Positions 11,595-39,651 of a stretch of 58,220 nucleotides of DNA are shown one piece after another. The DNA lies in contig JALGWI010000017.1 in NCBI GenBank assembly GCA_025774245.1, forward strand, positions 1 through 58,220. The letters are read 5' to 3'. A program made the position numbers and the translations under genes. This stretch comes from a bacterium. GTDB lineage: Bacteria > Joyebacterota > Joyebacteria > Joyebacterales > Joyebacteraceae. The number at the start of each line of letters is the position of its first letter. The first letter of the stretch is position 1. The notes below the pieces were generated by a model. The model was given only the letters and a program-made list of their open reading frames with translations. It searched no databases and was not told where the DNA came from.

Positions 11595-12281
11595 TCAGAC
11601 CACCTCCAGGACACGCTCCGCCACTGCCCGACGACGCAGGTCGTACCGATCGTCGCGCGCACGCCGCCTGAGCAGGCGCTCGAGCCCGGGAGCGGCGTAC
11701 CGCATCTCCGTTACAGCTTCTCTCCCTCCCGCCTCGCTCAGCGCCAGGAGGGTGTAGTAGAAGGGGAACCGTCGCCACCGCCCGTTCCCGTCCCGGTACT
11801 CCGTGAGCTGTCCGATCCCGCCGCAGAGCCGTTCTCTTCTCCGCGAAAGGCCCCCCGCGGCCAGGTGGCGCCAGACCGACGCCGTGCACGCTCCACATCA
11901 GAAGAACCCGCGGCGCCCGCGCTCTGTCTCAGACTCCGCGAGCCGCGCGTCCATCGACCGGACGGCATTCTCGAGGGCTCGATCCGCGTCGCGCACGCCG
12001 GCGTCGAGGAGGCGAAGCGTGCGACACGTCTCCTCCCCCAGTATGTGTCCGGTCGCTGCGCCGGAGGTGATGCGGTGGCCGGTGAAGAGCCTGATGCCGG
12101 TCTCGTAGTCCCTCGCCGTCGGTGCGAACATGCCGGCGTACGACCCGGGGAGATCGTGTCGGCTCGCCAGCCAACGGGCGAGGCGCCGTGCCTCGGCCTT
12201 CGGCACGCGGCGGTCGAAGAAGAGCGCCTCGTTCACGCTGTCGAGCGTCCCCGCAAGGCTGTTCTTGTCCAGGAGTTCCAA
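11595..12281 (-). CDS. Probable selenoprotein with U-C-G-A-C motif (in-frame UGA)
   Basis: The frame starts at TTG 12281, behind GGGAGGAGG and next to the end of the methyltransferase gene. It runs to a TGA at 11900-11898, and the same frame continues without a break to TGA 11597-11595, giving 228 residues. The part after the UGA is clearly protein-like (V-W-R-H-L-A-A-G-G, then G-R-W-R-R-F-P-F-Y-Y-T-L-L-A-L-S-E). The UGA codon (residue 128) sits in G-F-F-U-C-G-A-C-T, a CxxC-like context. The N-terminal part (S-Y-A-G-M-F-A-P-T, G-H-I-L-G-E-E) looks helical. A GC-rich hairpin can form just after the UGA. Function unknown. Confidence 0.6.
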
Positions 12282-12286
12282 TGCGA

Positions 12287-12793
12287 CTAGCCTCCTCCCT
12301 CCCACCCGCGCAGCCGCGGAACCCACCTTCGCACGTTGGCCCTGTACGAGTGGTAGGCGTCGCCGAACCTCGCCTCGAGCGCCTTCTCCTCGACAAGGGG
12401 GAAGTAGAGAGTGTTCGCCAGGAAGAAGACGACGGCCCACGCCGTGAGGGGCCAGGACCTGAACACCAGCGATTCCGCCACGAGGACGAGGAGGGCGCCT
12501 GAGATCATCGGATTGCGCACGTGGCGGTACGGCCCACGGATCACGAGTCGCTTCGGAGGGTCCCACGGAGCCGGCGTGCCGGAACCGAACTTCGCGAAGA
12601 GGGTAGCGGCCCAGATGCTCAGAGCGCCGCCGAGACATCCGATCGCGAGACCGAGCCAGAAGATGAGATGCGTCGGGCTCGCCACATCGGCCGCGAAGCC
12701 GCTACGTGCCGTCAGACGGACGATCAACACCGGGATGAAGACGAGCACGACCCCGGGAAGCACGATGATGGCGCGAACGATCCCCCAGCTCAT
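12287..12793 (-). CDS. PEMT/ICMT-type membrane methyltransferase
   Basis: This 168-residue protein has four or five membrane segments and the PF04191-like signature: G-P-Y-R-H-V-R-N-P-M near residue 90 and E-E-K-A-L-E-A-R-F-G-D-A-Y near 140. These form the SAM-binding end of isoprenylcysteine or phospholipid methyltransferase-like enzymes. Its stop is next to the start of the probable selenoprotein gene at 12281, so the two are likely translationally coupled. The substrate is unknown. A second member is at 50,104. Confidence 0.8.
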   Translation of the reverse strand: MSWGIVRAIIVLPGVVLVFIPVLIVRLTARSGFAADVASPTHLIFWLGLAIGCLGGALSIWAATLFAKFGSGTPAPWDPPKRLVIRGPYRHVRNPMISGALLVLVAESLVFRSWPLTAWAVVFFLANTLYFPLVEEKALEARFGDAYHSYRANVRRWVPRLRGWEGGG

Positions 12794-39207: not shown

Positions 39208-39651
39208 CTACGATGCTTCCTTCAGCAGATCCACCACCAGTCGGTAAGCCGCGCCGACCGCCGGAAAGCAGACCCTCTGGGGTATGTCAGAGCTCATGTA
39301 CTGCTCGCGCCCCTCCTCCGTGCTCAGATCCGCCCCCGTCAATCCGCGGCACGTGATCTCTTCCATCTCGGCCTCGAAGCGACGACGAAACTCCTGCGGG
39401 ACCGCCAATCTGCGGAGTCCTTCGTCCATCGTGTCGGCCCTGCCCAACTTGAGACCGATGGCCATCACGGCACCAGCGACGGCACCGCAGACGGCCCCCG
39501 TGTTGCCGATCCCGCCGGCGAAGCCGAAGGCCATCCGGCGAATGACATCGTCCTCTACCTCAATCTCGAATTCCCGGCACACGGCCAGGAGTACGGCCTC
39601 CGATCAGACGCAACCTTGCCCCATGAACTGCGTGGCCCGGTTCTGCTCCAT
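39208..39651 (-). CDS. C-GCAxxG-C-C family selenoprotein (in-frame UGA)
   Basis: From ATG 39651 the frame reads G-Q-G-C-V, then TGA at 39606-39604, then S-E-A-V-L-L-A-V-C-R-E-F without interruption to 39208: 147 residues with the UGA at position 16. The family motif is clear: G-F-A-G-G-I-G-N-T-G-A-V-C-G-A-V-A-G-A-V-M, then C-R in I-T-C-R-G and V-C-F-P-A-V. A C-V-U redox pair at the N-terminus fits the known selenoprotein branch of this family. GC-rich sequence just after the UGA can fold. The only alternative is a start at 39582, which would discard the conserved N-terminus. Confidence 0.75.

Follow-up and report, generated by a model that had tools for sequence, protein, structure and literature searches.

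A gene on the minus strand of the window, the whole 58,220-nt stretch of DNA analyzed here, in all likelihood encodes a selenoprotein of an undescribed family with a predicted alpha/alpha-toroid fold. Translation of the window bore out the original prediction of a 228-codon frame that is open apart from a sole internal TGA at codon 128, in the context G-F-F-U-C-G-A-C-T (Table 1). The accompanying proposal that this gene specifies a selenoprotein is supported by Cys homologues, a SECIS-type hairpin and the decoding machinery, and judged from sequence it is very probably correct. Annotation that takes UGA only as a stop would cut the gene at codon 127. The prokaryotic selenoproteome would gain one family, and selenocysteine (Sec) would reach the alpha/alpha toroid, a fold without a described selenoprotein in the sources searched. 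The family is spread over numerous uncultured bacteria, and behind the Sec form stands an uncharacterized Cys-based protein family in more than 10 phyla.

Table 1. Positions of the gene, its putative recoding signals and related features in the window
Feature	Position	Strand	Remarks
Putative selenoprotein gene	12281-11595	(-)	TTG at 12281 as start, behind a good ribosome-binding site; 228 codons, then a TGA terminator
UGA codon 128, predicted Sec, first residue of U/C-C-x-x-C	11898..11900	(-)	TGA in the window, L039, L055 and L060; Cys in other homologues covering the site
Candidate bacterial SECIS hairpin, GGCGUC-[GGUCU]-GGCGCC	11867..11883	(-)	Identical in four TGA genes; agrees with the model of PMC13188914
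Shine-Dalgarno-like AGGAGG	12291..12296	(-)	9 nt 5' of the TTG start; from sequence
Upstream PEMT gene (phospholipid/isoprenylcysteine methyltransferase-like)	12287..12793	(-)	PF04191, E 2.3e-11
C-GCAxxG-C-C family selenoprotein gene	~39208..39651	(-)	UGA 39606-39604; PF09719, E 1.5e-24; TIGR01909

UGA 128 at the site of an invariant cysteine

The same TGA is found in three other metagenome-assembled genomes, whose proteins are 68-72% identical to that of the window. One of these, L039, belongs to the same genus and was recovered in a search of 98 genomes as a full gene with 68% identity and the same single TGA; L060, from Candidatus Eisenbacteria, carries it at codon 128, as does L055. Recurrence of the codon in a same-genus gene at this level of divergence, and in two further genomes, indicates that the internal TGA is not a product of chance. 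Length and frame are kept in all three orthologues, which have ATG at the aligned start codon, and in a maximum-likelihood tree the four TGA genes form one clade among the Cys genes with support of 100/99. Identity among the four is 63-77% on either side of the TGA. Where dS was computable, dN/dS was ~0.13-0.28 on each side (~0.16-0.28 before the UGA and 0.13-0.27 after it), values which indicate that purifying selection acts on both flanks and agree with the protein-like character first noticed there. Under a strict setting, a scan of the window by codon composition picked out this TGA; a looser setting returned about two dozen, this one included, most of them spurious.

Cysteine occupies position 128 in about 60 further homologues from more than 10 phyla, with [C/U]-C-x-x-C invariant. 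Among 84,980 species genomes scanned, 44 relatives turned up, three of them (L039, L055 and L060) with TGA at codon 128, and every non-TGA row that covers the site in the resulting 45-row alignment has Cys in the pattern C-C-x-x-C. HxLGEE and G-[RFM]-[YF]-C-C-x-x-C formed the basis of the two scan patterns, so this set was to some extent bound to show these motifs conserved. Neither pattern entered into a profile search of the WOR-3 phylum, which found full-length homologues in 24 of 147 genomes, all 24 with C-C-x-x-C and HxLGEE, and the aligned residue is likewise Cys in a distant stop-free copy from the 98-genome search. In many phyla, the alignment of homologues with Cys at residue 128, on which the original prediction hinged, runs straight through the UGA, and these comparisons place UGA 128 within one conserved protein, at the site of an invariant Cys. 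One weak match (L004 in G006) had two stops inside it and was set aside as looking like chance.

Putative recoding signal and selenocysteine machinery

Each of the four TGA genes has a hairpin that starts 14 nt 3' of the UGA, with a 6-bp stem and the 5-nt loop GGUCU, which begins 20 nt after the UGA (11877-11873 in the window). Folded alone, it has a free energy of -8.9 kcal/mol, and it lies within a 23-nt run that is invariant across the four genes. The bacterial SECIS model of PMC13188914 describes a 3-9 nt loop, a 4-16 bp stem, G in the first two loop positions, a spacing of 16-37 nt and at most -7.5 kcal/mol, and the hairpin agrees with it on each point. In this GC-rich window a model-fitting hairpin of equal stability follows ~4% of the TGAs by chance, so it is conservation and not stability, in itself a weak indicator, that carries the argument for a SECIS. 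At the 118 codons that are amino acid-invariant and have synonyms, the four genes share the same codon at 21, and 6 of these 21 are consecutive, at and just 5' of the hairpin (P 0.0018 by permutation; for the region, Fisher P 0.002). Counting against this reading, the hairpin spans codons whose protein sequence is conserved too, and longer stretches fold into other structures in some members. The homologous site of 14 Cys genes is mostly without such a hairpin; three have one within the energy limit, with different stems and loops. For the SECIS to be sought after the UGA, this hairpin is a candidate conserved at synonymous sites.

The source genome encodes selA (535 bits), selB (350 bits) and two Sec-containing selD genes with a TGA in each, adjoined by two strong tRNA-Sec genes, so that the decoding machinery thought plausible in the original prediction is present in full. 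selA occurs in all four TGA-bearing genomes and is absent from three of the seven Cys-bearing genomes tested. At gathering score, the window itself gave no match to a tRNA or to any Rfam family. It does contain the second UGA gene of a known selenoprotein family that had been reported there, of the C-GCAxxG-C-C family, in which the loop of a SECIS-type hairpin is likewise placed 20 nt after the UGA.

Were the UGA an ordinary stop, the gene would be a degraded pseudogene or a Cys gene split by an assembly error, and a Cys form of equal length does exist elsewhere. This is very improbable in view of a TGA that recurs in four independent assemblies, purifying selection before and after it, the frozen hairpin sequence and the complete Sec machinery. 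Still less credible is the production of two proteins by translational coupling, with a stop at the UGA and a restart at the overlapping AUG: although all four genes contain TGATG, the AUG frame is not conserved, running for 132 codons in the window and 31-54 in the other three. Frame 0, by contrast, shows 64-77% identity beyond the UGA, where it is homologous to the Cys proteins. That UGA has been reassigned throughout the genome, say to Trp or Gly, has nothing but the read-through in its favor and appears just as far-fetched, given that selA and selB lack internal TGA codons and that the homologous residue is always Cys and never Trp or Gly; moreover, all four TGA genes end in an in-frame TGA terminator, which points to local recoding. 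We have high confidence in the sequence-based reading that SelB inserts Sec at the hairpin. SelB with Sec-tRNA(Sec) would decode UGA 128 under the guidance of the hairpin loop 20 nt downstream, and the terminal UGA would end translation in the usual way.

Predicted fold and possible chemistry

An AlphaFold2 model of the read-through protein, computed with Sec as Cys from the 45-row alignment, is essentially all-helical and unbroken at residue 128 (pLDDT 96.9, pTM 0.93). The model shows the alpha/alpha-toroid architecture of the terpenoid cyclase/prenyltransferase superfamily, and from it we assign the protein to a compact alpha/alpha toroid with high confidence. The nearest PDB folds in Foldseek were C3d, squalene-hopene cyclase, alpha-2-macroglobulin and farnesyltransferase beta, the top matches having probability 1.00, TM about 0.5-0.6 and marginal E values of about 0.003-0.02. 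Some members give weak matches to PF00432 or PF13243, none above the Pfam cut-off; among them, the remote members L076 and L109 match PF13243 (SQHop_cyclase_C) below cut-off at E 5e-5 to 9e-5 (8.9e-5 for L109).

The best structural match was the thioester domain of C3d and alpha-2-macroglobulin (1qqf, E 5.9e-3, TM 0.53), from which the protein differs in being a bacterial stand-alone domain with 16% identity to C3d. In the complement thioester domain, the known chemistry is that of a reactive Cys with which a helix starts. Farnesyltransferase beta, in which a Cys at the beginning of a helix is a catalytic zinc ligand, has the toroid in common with our protein, which is smaller and without significant sequence match to it. 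The predicted fold is also like the toroids of squalene-hopene cyclase and other terpenoid cyclases (PF13243, PF00432); here, in contrast, there is a single toroid of 228 residues with U/C-C-x-x-C and HxLGEE conserved. Squalene-hopene cyclase is a two-domain enzyme of ~630 residues with a DxDD acid motif, and identity with it was rejected on the length of the protein, its one toroid and a translation free of DxDD. A thioredoxin-fold redox protein was likewise rejected, the model being essentially all-helical with toroids as its best Foldseek matches.

In the model, Sec128, Cys129 and Cys132 occupy the loop and first turn at the N terminus of helix 130-141. Several toroid enzymes have catalytic residues at the N termini of inner helices, and this precedent, together with the (near-)universal His79, Glu83, Arg163 and Glu192, leads us to infer that U/C-C-x-x-C at the start of this helix forms the active site. 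Other (near-)invariant residues include Y48, P54, G68, G82, E84, U/C128, C129, C132, R138 and W169. The alternation of Sec and Cys at position 128 points to this residue as probably the reactive one and offers a direct handle on the chemistry of an unannotated family. Sec128 might serve as nucleophile in a selenol/thiol redox cycle in which Cys129 or Cys132 would be the resolving thiol and a small peroxide, disulfide or electrophile the substrate, and the rest of the family would act likewise with Cys. We give this redox cycle roughly an even chance; the U-C-x-x-C motif and general selenoprotein precedent (PMC13188914) speak for it.

Alternatively, and more tentatively, the U/C-C-x-x-C motif with His79, Glu83 and other conserved residues could, in what would still be a selenoprotein, serve as a binding site for Zn, Fe-S or a soft metal, or activate a thiol for group transfer, in the manner of the zinc site of prenyltransferase beta. 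The zinc ligands of protein prenyltransferase beta are Asp, Cys and His. Three invariant Cys/Sec residues within five positions, the near-universal His79, Glu83 and Tyr176, and a toroid common to the zinc-dependent farnesyltransferase beta fit this possibility, but where Cys and Sec replace one another, the chemistry is most often redox. Covering redox and group transfer alike, the broader proposition that this is the first selenoenzyme on the terpenoid-cyclase/complement-thioester toroid, and one of a widespread, so far unrecognized set of [Sec/Cys]-Cys-x-x-Cys enzymes of uncultured bacteria with a chemistry new to the fold, seems to us somewhat better than an even bet.

Gene neighbors do not settle the choice between redox and metal chemistry, since none recurs across the family. 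Neighborhood clustering gave no general functional partner, only lineage-level synteny with a heptosyltransferase in one clade and with a 4HBT thioesterase and an O-methyltransferase in one WOR-3 group; genes for OsmC, glyoxalase-type, DinB, thioesterase, HdrA-like and molybdo-flavoprotein proteins adjoin single members or lineages. In the window, the stop of the PEMT gene lies 5 nt before the start of the selenoprotein gene, so the two are probably co-transcribed; the neighborhood survey did not find this pairing kept in relatives.

Novelty and distribution of the family

Searches of Pfam, NCBIfam and PADLOC returned no usable family match for the protein, and Table 1 of PMC13188914 (2026), which covers 119 prokaryotic selenoprotein families and subfamilies, has no recognizable entry. 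Of the new families of deep-Sep (PMC12013277), which include three hypothetical proteins, the comparison covered those tied to NCBIfam models by PMC13188914, and none of these match. A text search of open-licence papers gave nothing relevant on a selenoprotein with an alpha-alpha toroid. Within these sources, the original claim of an undescribed selenoprotein holds, and the best reading of the sequence is a new family within the bacterial selenoproteins. With the U-x-x-C selenoproteins (PMC13188914) it has in common an in-frame UGA, a downstream SECIS-type hairpin, Cys homologues at the same site and SelA, SelB, SelD and tRNA-Sec in the genome. It differs from them in placing U-C-x-x-C in an all-helical toroid, where theirs is commonly in a thioredoxin-like fold, and in matching none of the NCBIfam and Pfam models that hold most of those families.

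No relatives were found among viral contigs and plasmids. One WOR-3 genome with the standard gene also encodes a distant 300-aa paralogue (L109, G269:C216) with the motif CSLSC. In the source genome of the window, the two selD and tRNA-Sec loci (G000:C30:94415-95571 and G000:C97:2223-3388; L013, L014, L019 and L020) can be aligned over 3.7 kb at 78% nucleotide identity, and stem either from a duplicated locus or from an assembly that includes a second organism. The L060 genome (CP070702.1) is the only one of 47 genomes searched of its phylum to carry the gene, the 46 others being without a copy. Set against this rarity, the close copies in the window genome and its same-genus relative suggest that the selenoprotein gene may have been transferred horizontally together with its SECIS between the phylum of L060 and that of the window.
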